This document shows positions 33,563-64,000 of a stretch of 64,000 nucleotides of DNA, one piece after another; positions within the stretch are counted from its first letter, which is position 1; the number at the start of each line of letters is the position of its first letter. A program made the position numbers and the translations under genes. The DNA comes from Photorhabdus noenieputensis. Its GTDB lineage: Bacteria; Pseudomonadota; Gammaproteobacteria; Enterobacterales; Enterobacteriaceae. Below the pieces are notes generated by a model. It was given only the letters and a program-made list of their open reading frames with translations. It was not told where the DNA came from and did not search any database. The stretch lies in assembly GCF_018448935.1 (NCBI RefSeq), contig NZ_RCWC01000026.1, positions 1 through 64,000 on the forward strand, read 5' to 3'.

Positions 33563-34053
33563 ATATATATCCTCTTTAGGCATCATTTTTTAGATTCAAT
33601 AAATAGTTATTTAATAAGTAATGTATTTGATTTCACATTAATACTTTCGATTGCATTCTGGTATATTTTTATTTATAAAATGAATAAGTAATATTTTATT
33701 TGACGTTAAATTTTAATTGTTAATTTTTTGGATGTGATTTTATATTATGGGGGTCTATGTGTTGATATGTATTTTTAAATACGAATATCTAAAAAACATT
33801 AATTATATATAAACTATTTTCTTATTTTAAAGTTTTCTTTGTTTTCTATTTTAAATCTATTTTTTTACGGTTATTTTATTTTCATTCAAAATATCTGATG
33901 ATCATTATTAAAGTACCCAATTCATTATCTGGCTATTGGGTTAACTCCAGCACATTAGGTACCGCTGGTCCGATGCAGCATAGTAAATATCTTCCTTAAA
34001 TACATCGGACCAGAGAATTACGCGTGTCTTGTGCGAATATAGCGCCTTTCAGA
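33563..34053. other. Intergenic region between lectins 3 and 4
   Basis: About 490 AT-rich bases holding the lectin 3 leader and the lectin 4 trailer hairpin. No gene is supported. Confidence 0.6.
33965..34013 (-). repeat. Conserved downstream hairpin, lectin gene 4
   Basis: CTGGTCCGATGCA (33965-33977) pairs with TACATCGGACCAG (34001-34013). Relative to copies 1, 2 and 5 the stem has C-to-T on one arm and G-to-A on the other, so pairing is kept by a compensatory change. Confidence 0.7.
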
Positions 34054-35178: not shown

Positions 35179-35770
35179 ATATATCCTCTTTAGTAATAAT
35201 CTTTCAGATTCACTAAATAGTTATTTAATAAACAAGATGTTTGATTTTTTGAATTAATATTCTCACTTTTATTTTTAAAGAAATAATGAATGTTCTATTT
35301 AATACTGGCTTATGAACCGCAAAGTGTCAAATAAATGTGATATTACATTATAAAACCACCTGTGTTTATATATTTACATGCGGTTATTATGTGAATCCAA
35401 GTTGTTATTTTAAAAAATATATTTACTTCATGGTTGTTTTGAGATTATTCAAAACCTAAGGTGATTTTTATGGAAGTATACAATGTGCAAATTGGTTATT
35501 GGAAAATACAGATTCTAATTCACTAATATTCTATAAAAGCGGTTATTCTGCTTGCAATTGCTTTCTAGGCATATTCAGCTAAAAGTCTATCTTGCCATCA
35601 AAATAATACGGGAGTTTGAATTCGTATTGGGCTTGTGTGTTGAATATTGGGTTAACTCCAAAAAATTAAACACCACTGGCTCGATGCAGCGCAGTGAATA
35701 TCTTCCTTAAATGCATCGGGCCAGAAGATTATATTTGTCTTATACGAAGCTAATTCTAACTCTTTCCAAA
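35179..35770. other. Intergenic region between lectins 4 and 5
   Basis: About 590 AT-rich bases holding the lectin 4 leader and the lectin 5 trailer hairpin. No gene is supported. Confidence 0.6.
35676..35724 (-). repeat. Conserved downstream hairpin, lectin gene 5
   Basis: CTGGCTCGATGCA (35676-35688) pairs with TGCATCGGGCCAG (35712-35724) with one T-G wobble, 46 bases after the lectin 5 stop. Confidence 0.7.
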
Positions 35771-37354: not shown

Positions 37355-39943
37355 TTAAAAATAAGTTGTAATACCGGCACGAAACGTTCTGCCCGGTGAA
37401 GGGATATAACCGAGGCTAAGAGGCTGGATATAATATTTATCGAATACATTATCCACACCAAACTCAAATTCGACATGCTTATTTATACGGGTAGTTAGAG
37501 AGATATCAGCTACAGTTGCTGGTCGCCAGATAATGGGTGCCAACAGAGGAGCGGAACCGCGTCCTGGTTTTCCTGCTGGCACAGATCGTTGTCCATAATG
37601 GGAAACTCTGGCGTTAGCAGATACCTTGTCATTTAAGAATCGCTGTGTCAGATCGAGTGATACCGCATATTTAGGCGGAATGTGATTAGTCGCATAATCC
37701 GAAGGGAGGCTACGTGCAGCACACCCGTCATTTTCCGTACAGAATTTGACTTTTGTATAGTAATTCATCGATAAACGGGCATCAAAGTGATCACTATGGT
37801 AAACACTCGCCAATTCCAATCCGGCAAATTTTGCTGCTTTAATATTACTGATGTACATACTCCAGTAATCATCCATCCATGCTCGGCTAATATAGTCTTT
37901 TACCCGGTTATCAAAGTAGGACATTTTGATATCGAAGCTATCATTTTGAGCAATGATATTCTGGAAGCGTGATGTCAGCCCGACTTCGATATTTTTTGAA
38001 ATTTCAGGTTTTATATGATCGTCAACACTCATCATATAGCCGCGAATACCTTCAACCATTGATGGAAAACGTGGGGCATAGGCATATTTAGCATGCAGTG
38101 CTGTTTCATGATTAAGTTCAAGCTTAGTGCCTACCCAATAGCCGTGAGCATGGTCTCGCTTATTGTTTACTTTCCCAGAAGTGAGTTGTGGTAGCCAAGA
38201 GCTACCCGGACGAGCTGGACTGTAATCTTCGATCTGATAGGATTTATAATCCCACCCGCCCATTAGGGTCAGGCGGTCGGCAAGTATATAGTTCCCGTTC
38301 AGGAAAAAATGGCCTTCTTTACGTTCTCCTTCCCGATTAACGGCATATTTCCATTTACCTGCGCTTGGGCCAGTGCGTTCACGAATAAAACTGGCACCGT
38401 AGTTCAACTCAATATCTTGCATCGAAAGCTCAAATAATGAGGTGTTGCTCAAATTCACCCCGACTGTGCGCATGAATTTTTTATCACCGAGAGTGTTATT
38501 TGAGGTTCGAGGGCGGTCGTTAACCCGTGTTTGCCATACTCCGATATCCAAATTAATCCAGGGATTTGACGCAGGTTCCCATTTATAGTTGAGGCTGTGT
38601 CTGTTCATGTTGAGCCGTGTCAGTGGCCCCTGTTCCAAGATCATAAATGTTTGGCTCAGGTTTGCCATATCCGCGACATAGGATTCCCCGTAGAGATTTT
38701 GGTAATGGCTAATGATAGCGGAGAGTTCATGACCATCGCCAAAACGAACTTTTCCTTTACCCAGTAATGACTGGCTATCTTCAGAAGTGTTAGGTACGGC
38801 ATCTCCCATTGCGTACAGCGAATAACCGGCCATTTGTTCACTGAATTGTGGAATGTGGCAATCTTGTGGATCACTCTGACACAAATAGCCTGGCATCCCA
38901 CGTTCCTTAGCGCCCGGTCCGTGTTTGCCTGAGTGGTAATTGCCCCGCTTGCGCTGAGAAACACCAAACAGCAATTCATAGGAGGGTTCGGCCATCGCGA
39001 AAACAAGACTCCCGGTGCGATTCTTAGCGTCGAAAAGAGAGGTTTTTGATGGGGAAGCCCAGTCATTGCGTTGATAATCGTCAGGATTAGAGTGATTGCT
39101 CAGCAGACTTCCTTTCAGGCGTAGTCCTACCTTTTGTCCATCAAGGAGGATATCACTGGCTTCAATGGTTTTTATCTCCACCGTTCCCCCGATAGCTCCC
39201 ATGCCGCCTTTTCCTGTCGGGCCTTTACTGATATCTACCCGGCCAATGAAATCGGGATCAATAAAGGAACGGTTGGAGACACCTTGATAACCTCGGTATA
39301 GCGCGGTTTGGTTAGACGCGCCGTCAACGGTAGTTAAGACTCGGCCTTGTCCTTGCAAGCCCCGGATATTCACATCCAGGCTGCCTGAACTGCGTGCTTC
39401 GCCGGATAATACCCCCGGTGTTGTTTTGAAAATATCAACAGGGTGGATCACACCGAATTTTTCAATATCTTTACCTTTGATAGTGGTACTGTCGAACCGC
39501 AATGGTTCATTACCTCCGTACCCGCGATTGCCTGCTACCATAAGAGGACTTAGTATGACTACACTTTTGTTGGCCATCTTCTTTGTCATTTTTACCAGCG
39601 TATAACTGCCATCGGTACGTTGGGACAGATGTAAATGACTGTCTGTAAGCAGTTGTATTAAACCTTGATGAGCAGTAAAACTGCCGTTTAATGACGGCGC
39701 TGTTAGCCCGTTGGTTAAATTCGGATCGAAAGAGAGAGCGGTACCGGTTTGCGCTGCAAAATGGGACAACGAATTGCCTAATGAACCTGGCGGAATATGA
39801 ACGGAATAGAGTGTATCTGCTGGTGTGGTGGCGTAAAGGGGACGTGCCGGCAGCAGTATTAATGGCAATAACAGTGCGAATAAAGACTTTTTCTGCCAAC
39901 GTGGTTGTGAATCTTGGCAGTCAACATGATATGGCATAGGCAA
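37355..39943 (-). CDS. TonB-dependent outer-membrane receptor with STN signalling domain (heme/HasR-like)
   Basis: An 862-residue receptor. A signal peptide (KKSLFALLLPLILLPARPLYA) is followed by a secretin/TonB N-terminal (STN) domain at about residues 48-118 (VHIPPGSLGNSLSHFAAQTG). A plug domain comes next (GVLSGEARSSGSLDVNIRGLQGQGRV; GGMGAIGGTVEIKT), then a 22-strand barrel ending in an aromatic residue (AGITTYF). The plug segment GAIGGTVEIKTIEASDIL and a KPEISKNIEVGL box resemble heme/hemophore receptors of the HasR type, but substrate is inferred. With the FecI/FecR-like pair upstream it forms a cell-surface signalling system, in which ligand binding activates the sigma factor. Confidence 0.85.
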   Translation of the reverse strand: MPMPYHVDCQDSQPRWQKKSLFALLLPLILLPARPLYATTPADTLYSVHIPPGSLGNSLSHFAAQTGTALSFDPNLTNGLTAPSLNGSFTAHQGLIQLLTDSHLHLSQRTDGSYTLVKMTKKMANKSVVILSPLMVAGNRGYGGNEPLRFDSTTIKGKDIEKFGVIHPVDIFKTTPGVLSGEARSSGSLDVNIRGLQGQGRVLTTVDGASNQTALYRGYQGVSNRSFIDPDFIGRVDISKGPTGKGGMGAIGGTVEIKTIEASDILLDGQKVGLRLKGSLLSNHSNPDDYQRNDWASPSKTSLFDAKNRTGSLVFAMAEPSYELLFGVSQRKRGNYHSGKHGPGAKERGMPGYLCQSDPQDCHIPQFSEQMAGYSLYAMGDAVPNTSEDSQSLLGKGKVRFGDGHELSAIISHYQNLYGESYVADMANLSQTFMILEQGPLTRLNMNRHSLNYKWEPASNPWINLDIGVWQTRVNDRPRTSNNTLGDKKFMRTVGVNLSNTSLFELSMQDIELNYGASFIRERTGPSAGKWKYAVNREGERKEGHFFLNGNYILADRLTLMGGWDYKSYQIEDYSPARPGSSWLPQLTSGKVNNKRDHAHGYWVGTKLELNHETALHAKYAYAPRFPSMVEGIRGYMMSVDDHIKPEISKNIEVGLTSRFQNIIAQNDSFDIKMSYFDNRVKDYISRAWMDDYWSMYISNIKAAKFAGLELASVYHSDHFDARLSMNYYTKVKFCTENDGCAARSLPSDYATNHIPPKYAVSLDLTQRFLNDKVSANARVSHYGQRSVPAGKPGRGSAPLLAPIIWRPATVADISLTTRINKHVEFEFGVDNVFDKYYIQPLSLGYIPSPGRTFRAGITTYF

Positions 39944-40024
39944 GTTCTCTATAACTTTTTCAGCTTCTTTTATTTCTATGCCGTATGAGATTGAAAAAAG
40001 TGTCAGTAAAAATGATTATTTTTA

Positions 40025-41041
40025 TTAACTGAGTGAGTAGAGGGTAATCCAATAGCGGGTCAGGCTGTGCATTGAGAGCGGATAAGTTTGTAATAGCATA
40101 TGCAGTGCCAGATCCGTATCCCGGATGGGAAAAGCACCAGAAACCCGCAGATTAGCGACTGCGTCATCACAACGGATGACACCGGAACGATAGCGATTCA
40201 GTTCAGTAACCACCGTTGCCAGCGGCAAGTCATCAGCTACCATCATGCCCTGTAACCAGCTTAGAGATGCGGTTGAACGGGGATGTTGTGGGGCAACGGC
40301 AAATTGAGTGAAATAGGTTGCTTCTCCAGCATGGAGTCTGTGTGGCAAACCATTATCTGGCGTAATCCGAACTGATCCTTCCACTATTTCCACCTGAGTG
40401 TGTGAGGCTTGTTGGCGGACGCTGAATTTTGTACCTAACGCCACAATAACGCCTTGTTTGGTTTGTACTTTAAATAGGCGTACCGGCTGGTGGCTATCTT
40501 TATGGGTTTCAATATAAATTTCCCCTAGCTTTAGATGAACAAGCCGTTGGGTATCATCATAATGAACATCTGTTGAGCTTTGAGTATTTAAAGTGAGTTG
40601 ACTGTTATCCGGTAATGACCAGCGCTGAATTTGCCCGGTTGCAGTGTGATAATCGCCGGTGAGAAGCTGAAATTGATCCGAGCGCCAGAAGAGCGATGAT
40701 GCGCCAGCCGGTATTAACAACATGAGTGTCAGCTTTCTGATGGCTTCTCGACGGGAAAGGTTCTGTTTGTTGTTTAACAGCGGTGAGGCGATATGCGGAG
40801 GTAAATGGTGTAACCGTGCTAACAGACATTGCGCCCGTTCCCAGGCTTGCGCATGTTCTGGACTTTGTGCACACCAGGCAGCGCAGGCATTCCGATCAGC
40901 TTCGCTGGCATGACTATCATGCAAAACGGTCAACCATTCTGCGGCTTCGGCAAGTATCGTTTCAGAAGGTGTACTTGATGAAGACGAAGATGTGTCAGTG
41001 GAAGCCATACCAATCCCTCTTATGCCATCGCTATCAGACAT
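40025..41041 (-). CDS. FecR-like anti-sigma factor/sigma regulator
   Basis: A 338-residue single-pass inner-membrane protein. The N-terminal cytoplasmic DUF4880-type segment (AAEWLTVLHDSHASEADRNACAAWCAQSPEHAQAWERA) is followed by a transmembrane helix near residues 100-118 (LTLMLLIPAGASSLFW). The periplasmic FecR domain contains GEIYIETHKDSHQPVRLFKVQTKQG and ALGTKFSVR. The C-terminal part probably contacts the receptor STN domain. Its start overlaps the sigma gene by 22 bases, and an internal Met at 41008 is an alternative start. Confidence 0.9.
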   Translation of the reverse strand: MSDSDGIRGIGMASTDTSSSSSSTPSETILAEAAEWLTVLHDSHASEADRNACAAWCAQSPEHAQAWERAQCLLARLHHLPPHIASPLLNNKQNLSRREAIRKLTLMLLIPAGASSLFWRSDQFQLLTGDYHTATGQIQRWSLPDNSQLTLNTQSSTDVHYDDTQRLVHLKLGEIYIETHKDSHQPVRLFKVQTKQGVIVALGTKFSVRQQASHTQVEIVEGSVRITPDNGLPHRLHAGEATYFTQFAVAPQHPRSTASLSWLQGMMVADDLPLATVVTELNRYRSGVIRCDDAVANLRVSGAFPIRDTDLALHMLLQTYPLSMHSLTRYWITLYSLS

Positions 41042-41529
41042 TGATAAAAGCCTTGTTTCATATAACGTTTTACTGTGGACAGCGAGATATTCATCTGATT
41101 GGCAATATCTTCATACTTCATTCCTTCTATCTGGGAAAGTAAAAAGGCGGTTTGCACTGGCGTGGGGAGTTGGCTAAGCATGATATCAATTTCTTGAAGT
41201 GTTTCGAGGATGATAAGTTTTTGCTCTGGTGCGGGAATGAGCGGTTCAGGCAGACTGACGAGTAAATCCAGATAAGATTGTTCAAGTGAGCGGCGACGAT
41301 ACCAGTTAACCATCAACCCCTTGGCAATAGTGACGATGTAGGCTCGGGGTTCATTGAGTTGCTGTGGTAAAGGTGAACGAAGTAATTTAACAAAAGTATC
41401 TTGAGCTAAGTCTGCGGCAGCTTCATCGCAGTTAAGACGATGCTTAAGCCAGCGAAATAGCCAATTATGATTGTGGATGTACATGCACTGGATCTGTTGA
41501 GTGTCTGAAACATTAACGGTCATTTTCAT
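41020..41529 (-). CDS. FecI-like ECF sigma factor
   Basis: A 169-residue ECF sigma factor of the iron-starvation (FecI/HasI) group. Region 2 includes LFRWLKHRLNCDEAAADLAQDTFVKLLRS and EPRAYIVTIAKGLMVNWYRRR. Region 4 holds the helix-turn-helix MKYEDIANQMNISLSTVKRYMKQGFYQC. It is the first gene of the sigma-antisigma-receptor set and sits behind a Fur-box-like site. Start is 41529, or the Met at 41523. Confidence 0.92.
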   Translation of the reverse strand: MKMTVNVSDTQQIQCMYIHNHNWLFRWLKHRLNCDEAAADLAQDTFVKLLRSPLPQQLNEPRAYIVTIAKGLMVNWYRRRSLEQSYLDLLVSLPEPLIPAPEQKLIILETLQEIDIMLSQLPTPVQTAFLLSQIEGMKYEDIANQMNISLSTVKRYMKQGFYQCLIAMA

Positions 41530-44313: not shown

Positions 44314-44341
44314 GTATTCTTACTAGGAGCTGTTGTTCGTT

Positions 44342-45697
44342 ATGAGTTCAATGACTGATATTTATGAAACCTTGTGTGTTGCATCACAACCTATGTCCGT
44401 TTCGGATTTATTGGCGGAGTATCCTTCCGTTCCTAGAAGGACTGTTCAACGTTGGTTGGGACGACTTGTTGAAGATAAGAAAGTACAGATATTGGGTGAA
44501 GGTCGAAGTCGCCGCTATGTTATCGTTATGGAGGAAACATCAGATTCGGTAGCGGATAGATCGGATAATTTCCCGAGCTATATTCCACTGTCTGAGGATA
44601 GTAAGGATATTCTTCGTTATATTGATCAACCCATCAAAGCGAGAACGCCTATCGGTTATCAGCGAGAGTTTCTGGAATTATATGAGCCGAATGTCACTTA
44701 TTATCTGTCGGTTCCAATTCGTAATCAGCTTTGGCGAATTGGAGATACGAAACAAATCTCACAGCCAGCGGGAACCTATGGTAGAGCTATCTTGGATCGT
44801 TTGCTCATTGATTTATCGTGGGCTTCAAGTTATTTGGAAGGAAACACTTATAGTCGATTGGATACGGTGAAGTTGATTGAATATGGAAAAATTGCGGTAG
44901 GAAAAAACGCTATTGAAACTCAAATGATCCTAAACCATAAAGCCGCTATTGAATTACTTGTCGATGGTATTGAGGAGCTTGATTTTAATCGATATACCGT
45001 TCTCAATTTACACAGTACATTATCTGAAAATTTATTATCTAATCCTGTCTATGAAGGACGTATCCGTCAACATCAAGTTGAAATAGGAAAAAGTGTTTTC
45101 AGGCCGTTATCGGGTGAGGCCCATATCAGTGAAATTTTGGATTCGTTGCTCGGGAAAGCAGGAGCTATATCAGATCCGTTTGAGCAATCCTTTTTTATGA
45201 TGGTCCATTTGCCGTATTTACAGCCTTTTGCTGATGTTAATAAGCGAACTTCCCGCTTGGCCGCTAATTTGCCGTTGGTTCGTTCAAATCTATGTCCGTT
45301 AACTTTTGTCGATGTACCGGAAGAAGCATATAGCCGTGCAATGCTTGGTATTTATGAAATGACCCGAGTTGAATTACTACGGGATCTTTATTTGTGGGCT
45401 TATGAGCGTTCAGCCCGAGAATATTTGGCTGTCACGCAGGGAATCACCGCACCAGATCCGTTAAGATTACAATATCGAAATGTGATTAAGCAGATCGTTT
45501 ATCGGGTAGTTTCCACGCCAGAGATGGATTCAATTGACGTTATAGATAAATTAATTTCCGATGAATTAAGTCAATCTGAGCGTGACACGTTAAAGGCATT
45601 GGTTATTGAGGAATTACGGCGATTGCATGAGGGTGTGTTGGCAAGGTATGGCCTCCGACCTTCGCAATTTGAAAAATGGAAGGGAAAACACCGATAG
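44342..45697 (+). CDS. Winged-helix Fic-domain protein with a Gln in place of the catalytic His
   Basis: A 451-residue protein. The N-terminal helix-turn-helix (MSVSDLLAEYPSVPRRTVQRWLGRL, about residues 17-42) is followed by a Fic/DOC core. The inhibitory-helix motif appears as WASSYLEGNTYS (S-x-x-x-E-G-N type). The catalytic loop reads LQPFADVNKRTSRLA, whereas AMP-transferring Fic enzymes have HPFxDGNxR. The His is replaced by Gln, as in a subfamily that I recall but cannot place. Start is the ATG at 44342 behind TAGGAG. It may be a regulator rather than an active AMPylase. Confidence 0.85.
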   Translation: MSSMTDIYETLCVASQPMSVSDLLAEYPSVPRRTVQRWLGRLVEDKKVQILGEGRSRRYVIVMEETSDSVADRSDNFPSYIPLSEDSKDILRYIDQPIKARTPIGYQREFLELYEPNVTYYLSVPIRNQLWRIGDTKQISQPAGTYGRAILDRLLIDLSWASSYLEGNTYSRLDTVKLIEYGKIAVGKNAIETQMILNHKAAIELLVDGIEELDFNRYTVLNLHSTLSENLLSNPVYEGRIRQHQVEIGKSVFRPLSGEAHISEILDSLLGKAGAISDPFEQSFFMMVHLPYLQPFADVNKRTSRLAANLPLVRSNLCPLTFVDVPEEAYSRAMLGIYEMTRVELLRDLYLWAYERSAREYLAVTQGITAPDPLRLQYRNVIKQIVYRVVSTPEMDSIDVIDKLISDELSQSERDTLKALVIEELRRLHEGVLARYGLRPSQFEKWKGKHR

Positions 45698-53728: not shown

Positions 53729-53808
53729 AAAGTGATATTGCTAATTAATATCATTCTGTGGAGTAGGGCGTAGTCACTACTTACGGAAATATGGATAAAA
53801 CAATTACC

Positions 53809-54572
53809 GTGTTCCTCACGTCTGTGGGGATGAACCTGAATTTTGGTATACATTTTAACCAGAAAGAATATGTTCCCTGTGTTTAATGGGACCGCTATAA
53901 TTAGTGATAGGATATCGTGTTAGTGGGCGTTCCTGACTGTTACTGGGGTGAACCAAACTCGATATATCTCGTCAAAGAGAGAATTTAAGTGTTCCCTGCA
54001 TTTGTGGGGATAAACCGCGGCATGAGTGATGCTTTACTATGTTCGCTAAATGTTCCCTGTACTGACGGGGATGGACCTAGCAGTGCTCCAAATAGCTGTA
54101 AAGCCAAAAATGTGTTCCCTGTATGGTATTAACGGGGATGAACCGTGTGAAAATGACGCTGATAATCGGCTTTCCTGATGCTCCTTGCCTCAATGGGGAT
54201 AAACCGGACAGTAACAGTGATATAGTCGGTAGTAGGCGGTGTTCCTTGTGTCTATACGGGGGTGAACCGAACTGATACTGTTGTGTTTTGGGGTTGGAAG
54301 CGTGTTCCCTGTTATTGACGGGGATAAACCGAACAGCTAGCGTTTTAGCTGGCAAGAGATAGACTTGTTCCCTGTTTCTACGGGGGTAAACCGCTAAATA
54401 CAGAACTATCACCATTTGTTACGACTTGTTCCCCGTAATTTACGGGGATCAACCGTCATCCGGAAAGGTAGCAGGCATAAAGGGCCAGCGTTCCTTGAAT
54501 TGATGGGGATAAACCGGATTCAGGTTTTATGATGATAGTTGAAGTAGAAATGCTCCCCGTTTTTACGGGGAC
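53809..54572 (+). CRISPR. Degenerate type I-E CRISPR array, 13 repeats and 12 spacers
   Basis: Repeats begin at 53809, 53870, 53927, 53989, 54050, 54112, 54178, 54239, 54302, 54365, 54426, 54488 and 54550. Most are 29-31 bases, with GTTCC near the 5' side and GGGGATAAACCG-like 3' sides. All twelve spacers are 32 or 33 bases. Repeat 2 has lost part of the 3' end, repeat 6 is 34 bases, and the last is cut off after GGGG. Few repeats are alike, yet most can still fold into a stem-loop. The leader lies upstream at about 53729-53808. Transcription follows the cas genes' strand. Confidence 0.93.
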
Positions 54573-54951: not shown

Positions 54952-56211
54952 TTAAACTAATACTTCTACTGCATTTATTTGGCTTAGAAAATTATTCGGA
55001 CTTGCGCTTAAACCATAAGCACCAGATTGAAAAATTACCACTAAATCCCCCGGAATTGCTACTGGCATATCTCCTTGATGAACAAGAATATCTAGTGGAG
55101 TACAGAGTGGACCAACTATATTTACTATTTCACGTTTCTTTCCTTTAATTTTGTTACCAATGATTACAGGATAGTTTCTTCTTATTAGTTGCCCCAGATT
55201 TCCTGATGCAGATAGGTGGTGATTCATTCCACCATCTGTAACTAAAAAAACCATATCGTGGGAGATCTTACGTTCAACAATTTTAGTCACATAAATTCCA
55301 GATGAAGCAACTAAATAACGACCTAACTCCAAAATAATTTCCGTTTCAGGTAGGAATTTTTTTGCACGTTCTACCAGTTTGTGCATCGCATTGCCAACTT
55401 CAGCAATATTTAGTTCAGTGTCTCCCTGAAAGTAAGGGACTCCAAAACCACCTCCTAGATTAAAACGACGTATTGGAGATGGAACAAGACGTGATAATTC
55501 AATTACTAAATCAAGAGCCTTATTTTGAGCTTCAATCAAATGCTCTGCACGTAAATTTTGTGAGCCAGGGTAAATTTGAAATCCTTCAAAAACCAGGGAA
55601 TTTGGACAATCACGTATAAACATCAGTGCATCAGGTACATAAACTACATCCATACCAAATTGGCGTGGTCCACCTCCCATCTTCATGCCAGAGGAGTTAA
55701 GATTATAATCAGGGTTTATACGTAAAGAAATACGTGCACACAAACCAAGTTTTTCAGACAATATTTGAATTCGCCGTAACTCATTTAACGACTCGACATT
55801 TAACAATACCTGTGCGGAAATTGCTCTTTTTAATTCTGCATCTGTTTTACCCGGCCCTGCAAAACTAATATCTTCAGGAGAAATCCCTGTATTTAGCGCC
55901 AATGCCATTTCATTCGCAGATGCAACATCAAACCCTTCAACTTTTTGGGATAAGTGGTGAATAAGTGGTACAAAAGGGTTTGCTTTAATTGCATAATGAA
56001 TACTAATTTTTTCAGGTAAATATTTACGTAATAGACGTACTTGCTGATCAATATGTTTTCTAGAATAGGCAAAAAAAGGAGTCTGTCCTATTTGAGTTTC
56101 CAGTCTGGTTAATGGTATTCCTCCTATTTCCAGACAATCGTCTTTAATGGAAAATGTTTCTGCGATTTTCATCGATAAACTTTTCTGTGTCATTCCATTT
56201 TCTATATTCAT
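54952..56211 (-). CDS. Fold-III PLP-dependent decarboxylase (ornithine/DAP/arginine type, BtrK-like)
   Basis: A 419-residue alanine-racemase-fold decarboxylase. The PLP-Lys motif is YAIKANPF (about residue 79), followed by GFDVASANEMALAL. The GGGFGVPYFQGD phosphate-binding loop, ELGRYLVASSG, the catalytic Cys in GPLCTPLDIL, and the C-terminal SGAYGLSASPNNFLS are clear. Relatives include diaminopimelate decarboxylase and BtrK-type enzymes that decarboxylate carrier-bound amino acids. The specific substrate is unknown. AGGTAAATT precedes the ATG. It is the last gene of the cluster, separated by 215 bases from the KAS III-like gene. Confidence 0.88.
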   Translation of the reverse strand: MNIENGMTQKSLSMKIAETFSIKDDCLEIGGIPLTRLETQIGQTPFFAYSRKHIDQQVRLLRKYLPEKISIHYAIKANPFVPLIHHLSQKVEGFDVASANEMALALNTGISPEDISFAGPGKTDAELKRAISAQVLLNVESLNELRRIQILSEKLGLCARISLRINPDYNLNSSGMKMGGGPRQFGMDVVYVPDALMFIRDCPNSLVFEGFQIYPGSQNLRAEHLIEAQNKALDLVIELSRLVPSPIRRFNLGGGFGVPYFQGDTELNIAEVGNAMHKLVERAKKFLPETEIILELGRYLVASSGIYVTKIVERKISHDMVFLVTDGGMNHHLSASGNLGQLIRRNYPVIIGNKIKGKKREIVNIVGPLCTPLDILVHQGDMPVAIPGDLVVIFQSGAYGLSASPNNFLSQINAVEVLV

Positions 56212-56426
56212 AATTTACCTTACATTAGAAAAAGATAGCGTTAGTATATGTAATCCATCAACAGAATTATAAAATTCTTATAAATAGAGTTAATTTCTGG
56301 TATTTTTAAAATCATACCCCACCATTTATTTACATAGAAATAAGAATACATATATTTGATTAAAAAAAAGATATATCCATATATAGTTAACTATAGCCTA
56401 CAGCTTTTACATCCAGAAGTAGTTAA
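56212..56426. other. AT-rich gap between decarboxylase and KAS III-like gene 1
   Basis: 215 bases, AT-rich, with nothing recognised besides the decarboxylase ribosome-binding site. It may hold a promoter. Confidence 0.5.
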
Positions 56427-57365
56427 TCACGAATAAAGCAATAAAGATGCACCAAATAGACCACCTACTCCGGCAGAAATCAGCAAAATTTTATCTCCTG
56501 AATGTAATGTTCCACTATTTTTCAGTGTATGTAAATTAATAAGCATATCGGCACCAAAACAATGTGCTATTTCACTAATGTTTTTAAGAAATATCTTCTC
56601 TATAGGAATATTCATAAACTTTGCTGCTCGACGCCATATCAAAATATTCACATTATGTGGAATGATATACGATATTTCATCTATCGTCATATCCGACTGC
56701 TGTAATACATCTTGAATCACAGATTGTAATCTGAGTTGATAATTTGCTGTGAAATCTCGATAAGCATCAGAATTAGTTGGTAACCAAATACCTTGAGAAT
56801 ATCTTGGATAAGTATGTATAGAATGTGCAAGAATGCTTGAACCTTGACCGTTCAGAGAGAGCAAGGCGGCGGCGGCGGCATCACCTATTACCGCTACATT
56901 AGGAACTACTCTAAGCTCAAAACTGTCAGCAATTTCCCCGACTACGATCAGAGCTTTACTATTAGGAAGCGCATTCTGTAAATAATATTTTGCTAAAGAG
57001 AGTGCGGAAAATATGGATACACAATTGTTGCTGCTAGTTCCTATAGCAACAGCATTAGGTAGTTGTAGACGCCGAACAAGTAATGAGGCCATATTTTGAC
57101 CCCACACACTACTTATAGTCCCTGTATGAGCATAAATCAGCAGTACGACTTCTTGCTTAATGTGGGGAACTTGTTGAAACAATTCCCTGCAGGGTTTTAG
57201 CAGCATTTCTTCTTCGCTGCCTTCCTCTACCGGACAATGAGTTAATTCGTACATACGACTAAACACCCTCGCCTCATTTTGGGTTAAACCTAAGCGTTGG
57301 TATTCCATTTCAACTTTAAGCCTCTTTTGAGGTACATAGCTAGTAAGTGTATCTAATGTCATCAT
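56427..57365 (-). CDS. KAS III-like (thiolase-fold) enzyme 1
   Basis: A 312-residue thiolase-fold protein of the FabH/DarB type. A candidate catalytic Cys is C115 (SSNNCVSIFSAL) and a His is H237 in the motif IIPHNVNILIW. The usual third residue, Asn in FabH (GNTSAAS), is replaced in AHCFGAD (H268). The same CFGAD motif recurs in the second KAS III-like protein, so it looks like a subfamily trait. It might catalyse carbon-carbon bond formation or acyl transfer in the cluster. It follows the transglutaminase gene by five bases. Confidence 0.8.
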   Translation of the reverse strand: MMTLDTLTSYVPQKRLKVEMEYQRLGLTQNEARVFSRMYELTHCPVEEGSEEEMLLKPCRELFQQVPHIKQEVVLLIYAHTGTISSVWGQNMASLLVRRLQLPNAVAIGTSSNNCVSIFSALSLAKYYLQNALPNSKALIVVGEIADSFELRVVPNVAVIGDAAAAALLSLNGQGSSILAHSIHTYPRYSQGIWLPTNSDAYRDFTANYQLRLQSVIQDVLQQSDMTIDEISYIIPHNVNILIWRRAAKFMNIPIEKIFLKNISEIAHCFGADMLINLHTLKNSGTLHSGDKILLISAGVGGLFGASLLLYS

Positions 57366-57370
57366 ATGAA

Positions 57371-58285
57371 TTATTTACTCCATTCAGCATGTAAATCGAC
57401 ACAATAAGCACCGGATACCGGGCTAAAACTATGAACTTTTCCTTGATAGCTCAGTCCGTTGTAGCTATTAAAAGACGTAATTAGTTCATTACACTCATCT
57501 GGTAAGCAAGGATCCAACAATGCCATACGATCCAAAAAGTCTAGTTGCTGCACATCTATCACTCTCGCTCCAGGCTCTTCTTCCAGCAATATTCCCCAAC
57601 TATCCCATATCAATGGTTCATACCCAGCCAGTGAAGCCAAGTCTAAAAAGAATAAATTACGTACTGTCCACTGCCCATATCCGTCATCAAATCGATATCC
57701 ACTGAAAATACGTTCATCCATTGTTCCCTGTCGGATATGCCTCCATATTTCTGCTCCACTAAAGAATAAATGTTGAGGAAAATCTGATGGATTAACATTT
57801 AATAATGGCTTAGGAAGAACATTTAATCGACTTTCGGCATATAACCATCTAGTACCGTTCCAATATTCTACTAAAGTATGATCATGCATCGGACATTTAT
57901 CTATATACTGATAATGAGCAAATCCATAACGGACTCTTGCTGGAATATTTTTATGTCGCATAAAGGAGCATAATAAAACAGAAAAATCCCTACAAGTAGA
58001 TAATAGACGTTTTTCTGGAGGTCGAGGTTTTAAAAATTCTGAATCATCAAGTAACAAAAGTTTTTTTAGTATCAGTGAAACACAGCGGCTGTCTATTTCT
58101 ATATTACGTGTAGAAATGATGTTGGGATTAAGCTTGTCTTTGTCTGTCTGGTAGTGAATTAATAAATTCTGAACGATAGAAATTAACTCTTCCACATCAT
58201 TAGGTAAATCATCAAGCTGAGATGAATATGCTGCTGATGATGTCACCTCAGTATGCTGTCGATAGTGATTAACAGGATTAAACAT
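57371..58285 (-). CDS. Transglutaminase-like protein
   Basis: A 304-residue protein with a transglutaminase-like cysteine-peptidase-fold core. Cys98 is in STCRDFSVLLCSFMRHKNIPARVRYGFAHY, and His136 is in HDHTLVEYWNGTRW. Glu151 or another nearby acid may complete the triad. A related enzyme, AdmF of the andrimid pathway, joins an acyl group to an amine, and a similar amide-forming role is possible here. It overlaps the hydrolase gene by eight bases, so the two are coupled. Confidence 0.82.
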   Translation of the reverse strand: MFNPVNHYRQHTEVTSSAAYSSQLDDLPNDVEELISIVQNLLIHYQTDKDKLNPNIISTRNIEIDSRCVSLILKKLLLLDDSEFLKPRPPEKRLLSTCRDFSVLLCSFMRHKNIPARVRYGFAHYQYIDKCPMHDHTLVEYWNGTRWLYAESRLNVLPKPLLNVNPSDFPQHLFFSGAEIWRHIRQGTMDERIFSGYRFDDGYGQWTVRNLFFLDLASLAGYEPLIWDSWGILLEEEPGARVIDVQQLDFLDRMALLDPCLPDECNELITSFNSYNGLSYQGKVHSFSPVSGAYCVDLHAEWSK

Positions 58286-59210
58286 GAATAGGCTCCATTG
58301 GCAAAGATATAATATCCTTTGTGTTAAAAGAGGTTATAAAAGCTGAAATATAGTTCATTATTTTATAGTGTAATTCTTTTCTTGGTACATAATCACCACC
58401 ACTAACGACTGAATTTAATGCTTTTAATAAAGGAGAGAATTCATAAATAAAAGCGTAGTGACCAGCTCCAAATAGGATATGATGTTCAACATGAGGTAAG
58501 TGCGTTGCGTAATCAGATGGTGATCCAAGCAACTTCATAGTATCTCTTTCACCGGATAAAATTAAAGTAGGTAAAAGCATTTCATTTAGGGTACTAGCAA
58601 GAAACAAATTTGATAAAGCTGGGGCCAGTAAGATTACAGCACAAATACCCTTAACTAAACATTGCTCAACTTCAAAACATGATAGTTCATTTAGTACTGG
58701 TGAAAACTCTGGCTCCAGTTCAAAACAGGGCTGACAACCGCACATCACTAATGCATCATACGCTCCAGCGGAATGGCCCATCACTAATGGGTGCGAAAAA
58801 TTTATTCTCTCACTTAAAGCTTCTAAGAGTAGTGCATCATATGCGTATACTAAACGTCGAGGCCTGGTTGTCAAATTCATCCAACTATACCTGGCATCCT
58901 GAATATCTTGATGATCCACTGCTAACACAGCAAAACCTTGTGTTGATAAAAACTCGGCAAGGTATGATTGATCAAAACGTGAACCACCGGACCCATGAGA
59001 AATTATTATTAATGGCCAGTTTGTACCCATAGGGATCGCATTTTCTTCCGATTTTGCATGTAATATATTTCGGTATCGCTTTACGATACCACTCTCAGCA
59101 TATGCAGGATACCAAAGAGTAGCGGAAATAGTCCCTAATGAAGATGGCCAATTGTAATGTATTACTCCACTACCAATGATGTGAAATATATCATTAATTC
59201 CGTTTGGCAT
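58278..59210 (-). CDS. Alpha/beta hydrolase (PAF-acetylhydrolase-like)
   Basis: A 310-residue alpha/beta hydrolase. The oxyanion motif is ISHGSGGSRF near residue 79, the nucleophile elbow GHSAGAYDAL, an acid in LSGERDTMKLL, and a His in GAGHYAFIYE. It resembles platelet-activating-factor acetylhydrolase and dienelactone-hydrolase families. A GGAGGT site precedes the ATG. In the cluster it might release or trim the product. Substrate unknown. Confidence 0.85.
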   Translation of the reverse strand: MPNGINDIFHIIGSGVIHYNWPSSLGTISATLWYPAYAESGIVKRYRNILHAKSEENAIPMGTNWPLIIISHGSGGSRFDQSYLAEFLSTQGFAVLAVDHQDIQDARYSWMNLTTRPRRLVYAYDALLLEALSERINFSHPLVMGHSAGAYDALVMCGCQPCFELEPEFSPVLNELSCFEVEQCLVKGICAVILLAPALSNLFLASTLNEMLLPTLILSGERDTMKLLGSPSDYATHLPHVEHHILFGAGHYAFIYEFSPLLKALNSVVSGGDYVPRKELHYKIMNYISAFITSFNTKDIISLPMEPIHV

Positions 59211-59563
59211 TTAAATAAACCTCCAATTTATTACCATTGCTTAGTAAAGTGACCAAATTTCATTCAAGAAAATAATTTTCTATTAATGTTTTTTTACCAA
59301 ATTTATACAATTTCTTTCTTATTAAATCATAGACTCTATTCATTTTATTTATATTTCCTGCGCTATAGCGAAAATTTAATTCCATCAAGAAATGTTTTTA
59401 CTTTTGTCTATACCTTTTCAGAGTGAAGATGCAGGTTTTTAATCTCATAATTATATTATTTAAAATAAATAATTTACATATCAAACCTGCATCTTAAAGT
59501 ATGTAATTAATGGATGCTGATTTTTTTATTAAATTTTTATTCCATAAGTTAAGTACTAGACCG
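59211..59563. other. Gap between hydrolase and ligase genes with a 13-bp inverted repeat
   Basis: About 350 AT-rich bases. AAGATGCAGGTTT (59426-59438) and AAACCTGCATCTT (59483-59495) form a perfect 13-bp inverted repeat across 44 AT-rich bases. It splits the minus-strand cluster into two transcription units and could be a terminator or operator. Confidence 0.55.
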
Positions 59564-61129
59564 TTAAGAAGATACTCTGCCTTCAGAAAGCTTTTTCTTT
59601 AGTTGTTTATAGTCTGTTTTTCCATTACGATTTTTGGGAATAGCCCCTATCACCAATCTTGTTGGCCACATACTTTTGGGCATAAATTGCTGGCATATTT
59701 TACGCAGCTCTAGATTAGATTTTTCATGCCAAGAAATAAAAAATACTAATCCTTCAACACAGTTCCCTTCTATAATTGGCCAGCCAATAACAGCGATATC
59801 ATCCACCCCTATTGCTTTACTCAACATTGACTCGATTTCCAAACGCTCCAAACGTTGGCCATTGACTTTCAGTTGATCATCACAACGTCCTAAAAAATGG
59901 AATATCCCATCACTGTCACGCTTAACCCAGTCTCCAGTACGATACCAATAACAACTACCATCGTATTCGAAGTTATTAGCCTGTATAGAATTACTTGATA
60001 AGTAACCACTAACCACTTGCTCACCGCCGATCCATAATTCACCTTCTTCTATATCTTTCTCGTTTTGACGTGGGCGTCCAATCTTTAATTTTGTGCCGGG
60101 ATAAGGAGCCCCGATTGGAACAATCAATTCATTAGTTACTGTTGGCTCAGAGCTCCAGCGATAACCACAAACTGCAACTGTTGCTTCCGTTGGCCCATAA
60201 ATGTTATCAATATGTGATGCAGGTGCAGCCAGATGCCAACTTTCAGCCATGCTCTGTAGTAAAGGTTCTCCACAAAATAGCGATTGGCGTAAGTGAGGAA
60301 AAGAACCTGGTTCCAATTGCCGTGAGCGTTGAAAGTATAGAATAATAGAAGGCACTGATGCCCAAAATGTCAGATGTTTATCTCGAACAAACCCTCTAAG
60401 CATTAAACTGTTTTTGGCATCAAAAACATGAGTCGATGCTCCAATAGTCCAAGGAACAAATAGATCGTGGACGGAAACATCAAAGCTCAGAGGACAAATT
60501 TGAGAAAAACGATCAGCGCAGGTTGGTTGATACAGCGCTATGGTATTGGATACATAGCGTGTAACATTAGTATGTGCAACCTCAACCCCTTTAGGATTAC
60601 CTGTACTACCTGATGTAAACATCAAATATGCATCAGGATTATCCGTTTTCATTTGTGCAGCAGGAATCCTAGCTAAATCAGCATGTGCGAGAAAATAGTG
60701 TTTTGGATAATCATTACACCAATTCGGACGTTGTTTACTATCTGACAAAATTATTACTAACGGTTTATCTATGTGTTTCAATAAATCGTGCAATAACTTT
60801 TGCTCCTCAGTGCAAGTCACTAATAAATCAAAATCAGTAATTTTAGATAATAAACTCAGACCTTCAGGAGTCTCGTCTTCGTTTAATGGCAAATAAGTCT
60901 TACCGTAACATAATGAAGCTACAACACCTGCTAAGATTCCTACATTTCTTCTTCCAAGCAAAGCACAATATTTTCCTTGTGAAAGAGAGAATCCTCGGGC
61001 CAGAAGGGATGCTAACTCATGTAGCTCACGGTAACTATATACATCATTATTAATAGATAACGCTTGGTAATCTGCATATTTCAGTGCGCTATCATGCAGC
61101 CATTCACCTAAGTGTTCAAAAACTCTCAT
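59564..61129 (-). CDS. AMP-forming acid/amino acid ligase (adenylation-domain type)
   Basis: A 521-residue ANL-superfamily ligase. Core motifs are visible: A3 LMFTSGSTGNPKG (about residue 169), A5 YGPTEATVAVCGY, A7 YRTGDWVKRDSDG, A8 FLGRCDDQLKVNGQRLERLEIE, and the catalytic Lys in NRNGKTDYKQL near the end. It lacks a carrier-protein domain. It resembles stand-alone NRPS adenylation domains and DltA. The acid it activates is unknown. It overlaps the KAS III-like gene by four bases (ATGA). Confidence 0.92.
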   Translation of the reverse strand: MRVFEHLGEWLHDSALKYADYQALSINNDVYSYRELHELASLLARGFSLSQGKYCALLGRRNVGILAGVVASLCYGKTYLPLNEDETPEGLSLLSKITDFDLLVTCTEEQKLLHDLLKHIDKPLVIILSDSKQRPNWCNDYPKHYFLAHADLARIPAAQMKTDNPDAYLMFTSGSTGNPKGVEVAHTNVTRYVSNTIALYQPTCADRFSQICPLSFDVSVHDLFVPWTIGASTHVFDAKNSLMLRGFVRDKHLTFWASVPSIILYFQRSRQLEPGSFPHLRQSLFCGEPLLQSMAESWHLAAPASHIDNIYGPTEATVAVCGYRWSSEPTVTNELIVPIGAPYPGTKLKIGRPRQNEKDIEEGELWIGGEQVVSGYLSSNSIQANNFEYDGSCYWYRTGDWVKRDSDGIFHFLGRCDDQLKVNGQRLERLEIESMLSKAIGVDDIAVIGWPIIEGNCVEGLVFFISWHEKSNLELRKICQQFMPKSMWPTRLVIGAIPKNRNGKTDYKQLKKKLSEGRVSS

Positions 61130-62073
61130 GATTCAATGTCCTCTTTAACTAATTGAAAAATAGCAGCACCGAATACTGCCCCTAATCCTACAGTGGCAAC
61201 CATTACATAATCTCCTAATCGCAGTGTATCTCTAGCAAAACTCCAGTTGATAAAGATATCTGCCCCAAAACAGTGACCTAATTCAGGTAATTTATCCAAA
61301 TAAACTTTGTCCAGAGGTAACGCGATTTTTTGGGTTACATCACGCCATGAAATCAAGTTCACATTATGGGGAAAAACCCAACGTATATGTTCCCAAGACA
61401 AATTAGATTGTTTTAAACAGCGCTCCATTACATTAGCCAAGCGTCCAGCATAGCTGGTTTCAAATTGCACTTGCTCTTCTGCGGTTTGCCAAGAACCCTT
61501 AGAATGTTGTCCGTAGTAATCAATCTCTAAGGCTTTCATTTTGGCCCCATCACCTCCCAGACTAATTATGCAAGCTGTAGCAGCATCGCCACACAACGTA
61601 GTATTGGGAATTTGTTGTAGAATACCGCTAAAAGTTAGGTCAGCTGTCAGCAATAATGCATAACCTTGACCACCGTTTCCAATTAGATGATTTTGAATTA
61701 CCTGCAATCCATTGAGATTAGAAGCACAGTTATTCGAATGAATGGAGAAGCAAGTTGCATTACGCAGTCCCAATCGTCGGTTCAGCCTCGACAACAAATT
61801 ATTTGGATAAGTCCAAGTTTCTGGAGCAGTATGCGCATGAATAAGTAAAGTAATAGATTCTATTGCTATACCATTACGTGTCAGCGCATCTTGAGCTGCA
61901 CGATACATCATCTCTTCCAGAGATATATTACTGATAACTATGCGATTTAATCCATAAAAACGCTGATATATCTTGATTGCATCTTCAGATAATTGAGGCT
62001 CAATAGGAACTCGCTCCAATCCAATTTTCTGTTCTGGCAAATAAACACCAATGTCATTGATTATTAGACTCAC
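61126..62073 (-). CDS. KAS III-like (thiolase-fold) enzyme 2
   Basis: A 315-residue FabH-like enzyme from the GTG at 62073, which overlaps the exporter stop as GTGA with GGAG upstream. The frame is open to 62142, but the extra 23 residues are exporter sequence in another phase. Candidate Cys116 is in HSNNCASNL, His236 is in FPHNVNLISW, and His267 in LGHCFGADIF replaces the usual FabH Asn. It is a paralog of the enzyme at 56427-57365. Two such enzymes in one cluster suggest a condensing pair or acyl transferases. Confidence 0.82.
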   Translation of the reverse strand: MSLIINDIGVYLPEQKIGLERVPIEPQLSEDAIKIYQRFYGLNRIVISNISLEEMMYRAAQDALTRNGIAIESITLLIHAHTAPETWTYPNNLLSRLNRRLGLRNATCFSIHSNNCASNLNGLQVIQNHLIGNGGQGYALLLTADLTFSGILQQIPNTTLCGDAATACIISLGGDGAKMKALEIDYYGQHSKGSWQTAEEQVQFETSYAGRLANVMERCLKQSNLSWEHIRWVFPHNVNLISWRDVTQKIALPLDKVYLDKLPELGHCFGADIFINWSFARDTLRLGDYVMVATVGLGAVFGAAIFQLVKEDIES

Positions 62074-64000
62074 GATGTGGCTCCATTCGTTTTTTTGTGT
62101 ACAAAGATATAAAGCGAAGGCAGCAGGAAAAGGGTGAGACATGAACCTACTAACATTCCCATGATAATCACTAGACCCAGTTCAAAACGGGATTCTGCCG
62201 CTGGACCGCTGGCAAATAAAAGAGGTAAGGCTCCCAATATCATGGTCAGCGTAGTTAGAACAATTGCACGTAAGCGAGACGCAGATGCTCGCACTGTTGC
62301 GTAGTAAATACTAATACCACCTTTCTTGTGCAAGTTATCAGTAGCTTGCACCATTAAAATTCCTTGTTTACTGATCAACCCAACTAAAGTTAGCATGCCA
62401 ACTTGTGTAAACATATCAAGCGGTACATCAAACCAAAATAACGCTAGTAATGCACCTAGTACTGAAAAAGGAATGCTGCCCAGTAAAACAATGAGTGGCC
62501 CCAGATAATTAGTAAGTTGTAATGCTAATAGACAATAAATACCTACTAATGCTATAGCAAAAGTTACTAGTAAACGTTGTCCTTCTTCTTTGCTTTGTCG
62601 TGTTTCTCCTGATAGGTCGTATGACACTCCTTGTGACTTGAGATTGTGGAGTAGTTGAAGAGCAAACTCTGTTGCTTCTGATTGCCCTACTCCCGGGGCT
62701 AACACACCTTGTAGTGTCACAGCAGCCTGTTTTTGGAACGTATTTAGAGATTCAGGACCTACTTCAGGATTCTGAGTCACCAGACTTCCTAGTCTGATAA
62801 GATTGCCATCTAAACTTCGCACTTGTAGATCTAATAGTGATTGTATCGCAGCTCGTTCAGTTTTTTTCAAGGCCATGATGACGTTATAGGTCCGTCCTTC
62901 ATAAATGAAAGGTTGTAGTTTAGTATTGGCGTATGCCAAATTCATACTATAACCAACATCTGAAGCGGAAATTCCTACTTTCGCCAGTTGTTCACGATCT
63001 AGTCGTATGTGAATCTGCGGAGTATCATATTTCAAATCTTTTTTCAAAAATAGAAACATACCACTAGCACGCATTTCACGTAGCATTAAATCACTAAGCG
63101 CATCTAGATTAGCGTAATCTTTATCTTCATGTTTGAGCACAAATTGGAAAGGTAATCCTCCGACACCTGGCAAGGAAGAAGGCAAGATTACTACCGACTG
63201 TAGAGCTGGGATTTTAGTTAAAATATTTTGCAGTTCAGGTTGTAATTGTATTGTTGAACGTTGACGTTCGGACCAATTAATTAATCGAACAAATGAAAGC
63301 AGCTGATTGTCTTTTGGTACTCCTATGACGTAGTTAAAATTAGCTATTTCTGGCAAGGTACTATAAATATTCTCTAATGTGGGTGTGTGTTGCTCAATAT
63401 AGTCTGTTCCAATGACACTTGGGCCTTCTGCAATTACCATTAGGCTACCTTGATCTTCTTTGGGAGCTAGCGCGTGAGGTAATATAATGAACAGAATGGT
63501 TACACCGGCTAACGTAGTTCCCCATAGCCATAGTGGGAAATTTCCAGTTTTCATTATTCGAATTAAAACGCGTTCATAACTACGACGGAAGCTAGCAAAC
63601 ATCTTTTCCACTCGTCTCACCATTAGTGAATGTTGATGATTTGTCGATAGCATACGTGCGCACATGACAGGAGTTAGGCTAAGTGCTAATATCCCAGAGA
63701 TGATTACAGCTCCAGCAAGAGTCACTGCAAATTCAGAAAATAACTTGCCTACAATTCCACCAATAAATGCTAATGGCAAATATACGATTGCTAGAGTTAA
63801 GGTCATGGTTATTAGAGATATAGCAATTTCATTCCCTCCTTTTAATGCAGCTTGATAAGGAGTGTCTCCCATGCGTATTCGATGCAGAGCTATGTCTAAC
63901 ACAATTATGGCATCGTCAACTACCAGCCCTGTCGCTAGAACCATTGCTAGTAAGGTCAGTGTATTAATTGAAAAACCACACAAATAAATCACTAAGCACA
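62070..64000 (-). CDS. RND-type efflux transporter (HAE1/AcrB-like), partial
   Basis: The C-terminal roughly 640 residues of an AcrB-type inner-membrane pump. The gene runs off the window, so about 380 N-terminal residues lie beyond. SINTLTLLAMVLATGLVVDDAI (TM4 with the conserved DD pair), LTPVMCARM, TLVGLISKQGILMVQATD and GPAAESRFELGLVI are typical. It is coupled to KAS III-like gene 2 and probably exports the product of the cluster. HAE1 pumps act with a periplasmic adaptor and an outer-membrane channel, probably outside the window. Confidence 0.92.
   Translation of the reverse strand, partial: CLVIYLCGFSINTLTLLAMVLATGLVVDDAIIVLDIALHRIRMGDTPYQAALKGGNEIAISLITMTLTLAIVYLPLAFIGGIVGKLFSEFAVTLAGAVIISGILALSLTPVMCARMLSTNHQHSLMVRRVEKMFASFRRSYERVLIRIMKTGNFPLWLWGTTLAGVTILFIILPHALAPKEDQGSLMVIAEGPSVIGTDYIEQHTPTLENIYSTLPEIANFNYVIGVPKDNQLLSFVRLINWSERQRSTIQLQPELQNILTKIPALQSVVILPSSLPGVGGLPFQFVLKHEDKDYANLDALSDLMLREMRASGMFLFLKKDLKYDTPQIHIRLDREQLAKVGISASDVGYSMNLAYANTKLQPFIYEGRTYNVIMALKKTERAAIQSLLDLQVRSLDGNLIRLGSLVTQNPEVGPESLNTFQKQAAVTLQGVLAPGVGQSEATEFALQLLHNLKSQGVSYDLSGETRQSKEEGQRLLVTFAIALVGIYCLLALQLTNYLGPLIVLLGSIPFSVLGALLALFWFDVPLDMFTQVGMLTLVGLISKQGILMVQATDNLHKKGGISIYYATVRASASRLRAIVLTTLTMILGALPLLFASGPAAESRFELGLVIIMGMLVGSCLTLFLLPSLYIFVHKKTNGATS

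Follow-up and report, generated by a model that had tools for sequence, protein, structure and literature searches.

AFC-BC11, a strong antifungal, is made by the afc cluster of the Burkholderia cepacia complex. Reconstitution in vitro was achieved for AfcQ, AfcK and AfcP, with AfcP decarboxylating on the carrier, and AfcL, which resembles beta-ketoacyl-ACP synthase III (KAS III), stores the chain before transferring it to lysyl-CoA, forming an amide (excerpted text of PMC12186527). The bolagladin pathway (bol) of Burkholderia gladioli includes BolQ, an acyl-CoA dehydrogenase: deletion of bolQ leads to beta-alanine in place of dehydro-beta-alanine, a residue that before the bolagladins was known from the enamidonins alone (excerpted text of PMC7756342). 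In the vicenistatin (VinN/VinL/VinO) and butirosin (BtrI/BtrK) systems an acidic amino acid is loaded by its side chain and then alpha-decarboxylated, and the VinN/VinL/VinO set yields a carrier-bound beta-amino acid. Butirosin uses another kind of ligase. In andrimid an amide bond is formed by the transglutaminase homolog AdmF. Here we describe a gene unit of Photorhabdus noenieputensis that begins at the end of a stretch of 64,000 nucleotides, called the window below (positions 1-64000 of contig NZ_RCWC01000026.1, so that window and contig coordinates agree). We think it rather likely that this unit is a biosynthetic island, probably of horizontal origin, making an amide, probably a short acyl-peptide, that contains a beta-amino acid unit, is built without condensation domains of non-ribosomal peptide synthetases (NRPS), and is exported by its own pump.

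The contig (74,542 bases) extends 10.5 kb past the window, and the same-strand unit is larger than the window, with 14 genes at 54952-72078 on the minus strand. The original prediction, drawn from the letters of the window, had described seven of them on one strand as a small-molecule cluster. They are confirmed as real genes, all on the minus strand and placed as it had them; family scans (Pfam/NCBIfam) back the class of each, the small-molecule character is supported, and the start of KAS_B was corrected. It had allowed that a carrier protein might lie beyond 64 kb, where the N-terminus of the pump and an adaptor were also to be sought, and all three were found there. In coordinate order the genes are as follows.

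54952-56211, minus strand: DC, a BtrK-like decarboxylase dependent on pyridoxal phosphate (PLP); TIGR03099 641 bits (cut-off 478), best PDB match BtrK.
56427-57365, minus strand: KAS_A, KAS III-like, putative acyltransferase; Cys115, His237 and AHCFGAD (His268, Asp273).
57371-58285, minus strand: TG, transglutaminase-like, putative amide-forming or release enzyme; Cys98/His136/Glu151, PF01841 27.8 bits.
58278-59210, minus strand: ABH, alpha/beta hydrolase; GHSAG motif at 145.
59564-61129, minus strand: lig2, amino-acid adenylating enzyme; TIGR01733 260 bits, best PDB match 4oxi 248 bits.
61126-62073, minus strand: KAS_B, KAS III-like, with corrected GTG start; Cys116, His236 and GHCFGAD (His267, Asp272) in 315-aa numbering.
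62070-65111, minus strand: RND permease of 1013 aa, of which the window holds the C-terminal part (62070-64000); PF00873 758.6 bits.
65108-66181, minus strand: RND adaptor, beyond the window.
66178-67755, minus strand: lig1, VinN-like AMP-forming ligase, beyond the window; Asp217/Thr287/Arg319.
67781-69163, minus strand: MATE transporter, beyond the window.
69175-70254, minus strand: acyl-CoA dehydrogenase, beyond the window.
70247-70921, minus strand: protein of 224 aa, no known family, beyond the window.
70932-71825, minus strand: KSx, degenerate KAS III-like protein, beyond the window.
71812-72078, minus strand: stand-alone acyl carrier protein (ACP) of 88 aa, transcribed first; PF00550 29.2 bits.

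From the carrier to lig2 the genes form a chain of ten, with gaps of -14, 10, -8, 11, 25, -4, -4, -4 and -4 nt. After lig2 there are 353 nt, then a second block of the hydrolase, TG (-8 nt) and KAS_A (5 nt), and the decarboxylase comes last, 215 nt past KAS_A. The start of KAS_B was moved from 62142 to a GTG at 62073, which overlaps the stop of the pump gene by 4 nt, because a stop codon lies ahead of the corrected start in all three Photorhabdus relatives and the gene opens at GTG in both relatives for which open reading frames (ORFs) were listed (P. akhurstii and Photorhabdus sp. CRCIA-P01). The genome has two matches elsewhere to the phosphopantetheinyl transferase (PPTase) family PF01648, so the carrier could be activated. 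No condensation domain was reported by the family scans for any of the 14 proteins.

Ten related clusters, drawn from plasmid records and genome samples, were compared with the unit by tblastn over 20-37 kb of each: those on plasmids of Agrobacterium vitis, Rahnella aceris, Tritonibacter mobilis, Streptomyces decoyicus, Gemmobacter fulvus and Rhizobium sp. (L009-L014), one of Burkholderia cenocepacia (L049), and those of genomes G901, G962 and G888. The decarboxylase, the dehydrogenase, both KAS queries and lig1 match in all ten, lig1 weakly in Streptomyces (132 bits), the one cluster not credited with a ligase of the lig1 kind. The carrier matches in eight at the tblastn threshold, KSx in three, the MATE transporter in two and the adaptor in one, and TG, the hydrolase, the 224-aa protein and the RND permease in none of the ten within the 20-37 kb compared. 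Several of the related clusters have cytochromes P450, third ligases or ABC-type exporters. Judged by these matches, the Photorhabdus unit is a shared core with parts of its own. Independent conservation of the genes beside unrelated neighbours, which the original prediction had named as evidence against itself, is not what was found, because the core travels together in the ten clusters.

The Burkholderia cenocepacia locus (L049:15169-26424) encodes two acyl-CoA dehydrogenase-like proteins, an ACP, a KAS, a VinN-type ligase, a LuxR-type regulator and a decarboxylase that shares 46% identity with that of Photorhabdus. It was considered as the afc cluster itself and set aside: no citrate synthase was found in the 10 ORFs scanned (of 46 with at least 200 aa), and the gene order differs from that in the excerpted text of PMC12186527. 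It is apparently a cluster other than afc, although this is not proven.

Relatives of the decarboxylase are also found with polysaccharide genes. The ligase-decarboxylase pair adjoins glycosyltransferases in Sinorhizobium meliloti pSymB and in Aureimonas and lies in a polysaccharide region in Shinella, and the decarboxylase scores 270-396 bits with these loci and 389 with L049, versus 202-247 with the nine other clusters. It also exceeds the cut-off of the exosortase A-associated model TIGR03099. A cluster that makes an aminoacyl group decorating a surface polysaccharide or lipid would fit these observations. We consider this quite improbable, since the family scans of the 14 proteins turned up neither glycosyltransferases nor exosortases, the unit has a dedicated RND pump, and the dehydrogenase and KAS, present in 10/10 related clusters, were found by tblastn in none of the three polysaccharide loci with decarboxylase and ligase.

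Within the genus, P. akhurstii, Photorhabdus sp. CRCIA-P01 and P. luminescens keep the same gene order from lig1 to the decarboxylase, and their TG is 92%, 89% and 90% identical, respectively. These three loci (18 stretches) come from one genome-contig scan, which catches close relatives only, and conservation and dN/dS refer to the stretch from lig1 to the decarboxylase, with the other genes upstream of lig1 outside those loci. Eight genes of the unit are under purifying selection in these three other Photorhabdus, with dN/dS of 0.05-0.24 in 24/24 comparisons (8 genes in 3 relatives). The possibility that we are looking at a chance neighbourhood or a decaying island with no joint product draws on the 353-nt and 215-nt gaps that split the unit, on the flank past the decarboxylase, which differs in one relative (L006), and on the lack of an assigned role for the 224-aa protein and the degenerate KAS. 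It is very hard to maintain, because, as far as the loci reach, four Photorhabdus genomes have the genes in one order, and their dN/dS is low; moreover the core is common to ten other clusters. The GC content of the unit is 36.9%, versus 42.4% in window 1-46000, and this AT-rich composition fits acquisition by transfer, short of proof.

In the genome samples searched, parts of the unit are rare. TG was found in one of the 149 genomes of the family sample, which is its own genome, and G138, the only further member of the genus sampled, is without it. At E<=1e-25 the KAS profile matched 2/369 genomes of the class sample and 6/398 of the phylum sample, its own genome counted in each. G901, G888 and G962, of the phylum sample, carry whole clusters; G749 and G1046 had no decarboxylase match within the 20 kb examined and were not counted as clusters. 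At E<=1e-10 KAS_B matched 24/295 genomes, with a best score of 54.3 bits outside its own genome. Within its own genome it scores 51.7 bits against FabH and 172.8 against KAS_A, and the matches outside its own genome, being at the level of FabH only, were dropped as cluster members.

The decarboxylase matches BtrK at 264 bits in the PDB, versus 151 for the best diaminopimelate decarboxylase, and the BtrK-type assignment of the original prediction stands. A role in lysine or polyamine metabolism was dropped because BtrK lies so far above the diaminopimelate decarboxylases. Another relative, in Azoarcus sp. KH32C (L073:9872-11185, 42.6% identity, among the 50 of 65 matches listed), is annotated as alanine racemase and sits among formylmethanofuran and formaldehyde-activating genes.

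For the pocket region of lig1, the top PDB match is VinN at about 124 bits, followed by a two-domain NRPS at 115 and others at 77 or below. The entries concerned, 3wv4/3wvn, bear only the title non-ribosomal peptide synthetase and are presumed here to be VinN; the residue numbers fit with a constant offset of 16. Counted along the alignment, Asp230, Ser299 and Arg331 of VinN correspond to Asp217, Thr287 and Arg319 of lig1. In VinN these positions are assigned to the amino and carboxylate groups (excerpted text of PMC7756342). The Asp/Thr/Arg pattern is present in 7/7 lig1-type ligases and in 0/9 of the other ligases examined, and lig2 has Asp/Cys/Val at these positions. Lig2 resembles amino-acid ligases (TIGR01733 and DltA models), and its best solved match, 4oxi, is titled enterobactin synthetase component F-related protein; we take it to be the glycine ligase AlmE. 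The VinN pocket match, the Asp/Thr/Arg residues and the BtrK match together make lig1, carrier and decarboxylase resemble VinN/VinL/VinO. The original prediction had the ligase of the window, lig2, activating an acid. Most likely it is lig1, not lig2, that prepares the decarboxylase substrate.

The amino acid loaded may be glutamate or another, because Ser299 of VinN is replaced by Thr in lig1 and BtrK takes glutamate, one BtrK entry being titled L-glutamyl-[BtrI acyl-carrier protein] decarboxylase. The carrier-bound unit would then be gamma-aminobutyric acid, or some other omega-amino acid, the dehydrogenase would have another role and no dehydro-beta-alanine would be made, while the amide logic would stay. 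We regard this as unlikely, though less so than the other alternatives: the lig1 pocket is nearest to VinN, and decarboxylase and dehydrogenase are fused as one protein in three of the seven named related clusters (Tritonibacter, Gemmobacter, Rhizobium), which fits the bolagladin step sequence. Because of these fusions the two enzymes probably act together or in succession.

KAS_A and KAS_B share 30% identity and both match KAS III models (Pfam/NCBIfam). In an alignment of 15 cluster KAS proteins with four FabH, from which Av_h1, Gf_h1 and the degenerate KSx-type proteins were excluded, all 15 keep the Cys, the FabH Asn motif (GNTSAAS in the FabH of this genome) is replaced by [AG]HxxxxD, and the PH motif is kept in 13, Ra_kas1 and Av_h7 being without it. 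C-terminal alignments gave GHLGGGD for DpsC, GHVGAGD for CerJ and GHLGASD for ChlB3. Because [AG]HxxxxD is common to CerJ, ChlB3 and DpsC, acyl transfer is preferred over decarboxylative condensation, and the alignment favours KAS_A and KAS_B as acyltransferases of the CerJ type, as originally proposed. A novel Cys-His-His triad, considered for these proteins, was withdrawn, the same motif being present in CerJ, ChlB3 and DpsC. The predicted structure of KAS_B (pLDDT 57.5) was not used. In another alignment KSx lacks the Cys and the His; profile comparison links its family to the KAS (Prob 95.4, E 1.8e-08). The 224-aa protein was examined as a split dehydrogenase domain and rejected, with hhalign probabilities below 1% against dehydrogenases and small proteins of the related clusters.

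KAS_A and KAS_B also retain the Cys and the PH(N) of FabH, which is compatible with a condensing role. Were they truly condensing, an omega-aminoacyl starter could be extended to a short polyketide or an alkaloid, and TG would be a minor tailoring or release enzyme. This seems improbable to us: the FabH Asn motif is swapped for that of CerJ, ChlB3 and DpsC, and the family scans reported no ketoreductase, dehydratase or acyltransferase domain among the 14 proteins.

TG scores weakly in Pfam (27.8 bits, PF01841 cut-off 23), has no NCBIfam match and no match by sequence to a solved structure at E<=0.01. Its homologues confirm the transglutaminase class. Among plasmid records 27 gave matches, none reaching 60% identity (best 20 of 27 listed). 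A plasmid of Vibrio coralliilyticus carries genes for a Phe aminomutase, polyketide synthase (PKS), PPTase and AccD, which we take to be an andrimid-type cluster, and encodes two homologues, presumably at the AdmF and AdmS positions. TG matches the first at 76 bits (27% identity) and the second at 41 bits (22%, in the BLAST-aligned parts), and its family profile matches the second over 249 columns (Prob 99.7, E 2.5e-26), with Cys98 and His136 kept and Glu151 in place of Asp. Homology to both cluster proteins is in line with the AdmF-type assignment of the original prediction, apart from the Glu at the third position. As homologues also occur outside recognisable biosynthetic clusters (Rhizobium, Rhodococcus, Vibrio tritonius), the family is not confined to biosynthesis.

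Two further transglutaminase-like domains, both with Ser for Cys, head larger proteins: in Klebsiella grimontii (L042:7989-11813) a UvrA-type protein, and in Paenibacillus sonchi (L043:9965-12481) one with an ABC ATPase gene next to it. Both genes adjoin MATE and PPTase genes, and in L043 an NRPS too. These domains possibly serve self-protection in another cluster.

From the gene content, operon structure, conservation, homologies and key residues observed here we infer the substrates, the product and the order of steps in Photorhabdus. Lig1 would adenylate aspartate, or a close homologue, at its side-chain carboxylate and load it onto the stand-alone carrier, and the decarboxylase would strip the alpha-carboxyl to give beta-alanyl-S-ACP, or its homologue, with the amine free. 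This amine would be acylated by a KAS III-like transferase or by TG, and the acyl-CoA dehydrogenase would desaturate the N-acylated thioester to dehydro-beta-alanine. Lig2 may provide a further, probably small, amino acid; the chain would be released by the second transferase, TG or the hydrolase, and exported by the RND pump with its adaptor, perhaps by the MATE protein too. The scheme proposed originally, in which an activated acid and the decarboxylase-derived amine are joined by the transglutaminase, omitted the acyl-CoA dehydrogenase, which in bolagladin makes dehydro-beta-alanine, and the KAS-type transferases, of which AfcL forms the amide in AFC-BC11.

Besides the Thr at the Ser299 position, the FabH residues of the KAS proteins and the polysaccharide neighbours of decarboxylase relatives, several points weigh against an exported acyl-peptide of this kind. 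With the full-length lig1 query, VinN was only the seventh PDB match (193 bits), the entries above it being multidomain NRPS whose totals sum two domains. The dehydrogenase match to Burkholderia L049 is weak (47 bits). The third catalytic position of TG is Glu, and Asp in its relatives, and its predicted structure (pLDDT 38.9) was not used. A single carrier would need to serve two ligases. No ligase of the unit was identified as a fatty acyl-AMP ligase, and in the family scans none of the 14 proteins matched a citrate synthase, a methyltransferase or a desaturase; as NRPS are also lacking, the acyl donor is unaccounted for. Finally, the likeness to afc and bol is drawn from published descriptions, not from their proteins.

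Several other features lie around the unit. On its far side are DUF4123 and, weakly, DUF2345 proteins from 73333. On the near side a decayed CRISPR-like array occupies window 53806-54571, with repeat copies 61-77% identical to the reference and spaced about 61 nt or multiples of it (6 matches to a pattern built on the repeats themselves, 0 expected by chance). It is preceded by a gene row starting with cas3 at 46217, which we read as probably type I-E. Window 28912-36886 holds tandem ORFs of 371-382 aa, of which the three scanned carry DUF346/FG-GAP repeats and one also tectonin; they presumably resemble the PLL lectins of Photorhabdus. TonB-dependent receptor, FecR and sigma-70-family factor genes stand in a row at window 37355-41529, and a Fic/DOC-domain protein is encoded at window 44333-45697.

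The exported acyl-peptide with a beta-amino acid unit that we prefer can now be set against the known systems. AFC-BC11 and the Photorhabdus unit have in common a stand-alone VinN-type ligase, a carrier, a PLP decarboxylase, a dehydrogenase and KAS III-like transferases, and both are without condensation domains; afc alone further encodes a fatty acyl-AMP ligase, a citrate synthase, an O-methyltransferase and desaturases (excerpted text of PMC12186527), whereas Photorhabdus adds TG, lig2, the RND pump and the MATE protein. The word transglutaminase does not occur in the AFC-BC11 paper (PMC12186527). Bolagladin and Photorhabdus share an Asp-loading-type ligase, carrier, decarboxylase and dehydrogenase (BolO, BolC, BolN, BolQ) and have two KAS III-like proteins each, although BolM and BolP have Ser/Thr in place of the Cys kept by KAS_A and KAS_B, and bol alone feeds a four-module NRPS and a citrate-primed fatty acid (excerpted text of PMC7756342).

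Among solved structures, VinN comes nearest to lig1 in the pocket and BtrK to the decarboxylase. What separates the unit from vicenistatin and butirosin is that the family scans of its 14 proteins showed neither a type I PKS family nor a recognisable aminoglycoside gene. With the andrimid-type cluster it shares TG homology over about 250 residues (22-27% identity in the BLAST-aligned parts), and the Phe aminomutase, PKS and AccD of that cluster have no counterpart in the unit. Solanimycin was dropped as a relative, its repeat being described as dehydro-alpha-alanine.

No description of this Photorhabdus cluster was recognised in the full-text literature searched, which leaves most subscription journals outside, and the name Photorhabdus is absent from the main texts of PMC7756342 and PMC12186527. 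The original statement that no characterised pathway has this set therefore holds for the whole set in the literature searched but not for its five-part core, which is that of bolagladin and AFC-BC11.

More tentatively, and with somewhat less than even confidence, we propose that TG and the CerJ-type KAS share amide formation on one carrier, in an assembly line of an insect pathogen that makes a new dehydro-beta-alanine product without condensation domains, and that this is one branch of a cluster family scattered over Proteobacteria and Streptomyces and undescribed in the literature searched. Together with its relatives in Rahnella, Agrobacterium, Rhizobium, roseobacters and Streptomyces, the Photorhabdus cluster may serve as a series of natural experiments on amide bonds made without condensation domains. 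As TG occurs in this unit but was not detected in the stretches compared from the ten relatives, the question of which enzyme forms the amide becomes testable. Dehydro-beta-alanine is a rare residue, and AFC-BC11 is built by the same kind of stand-alone enzymes. The logic of the pathway is already known from afc and bol; what appears to be new is its occurrence in Photorhabdus and its combination with TG, lig2 and an RND pump.

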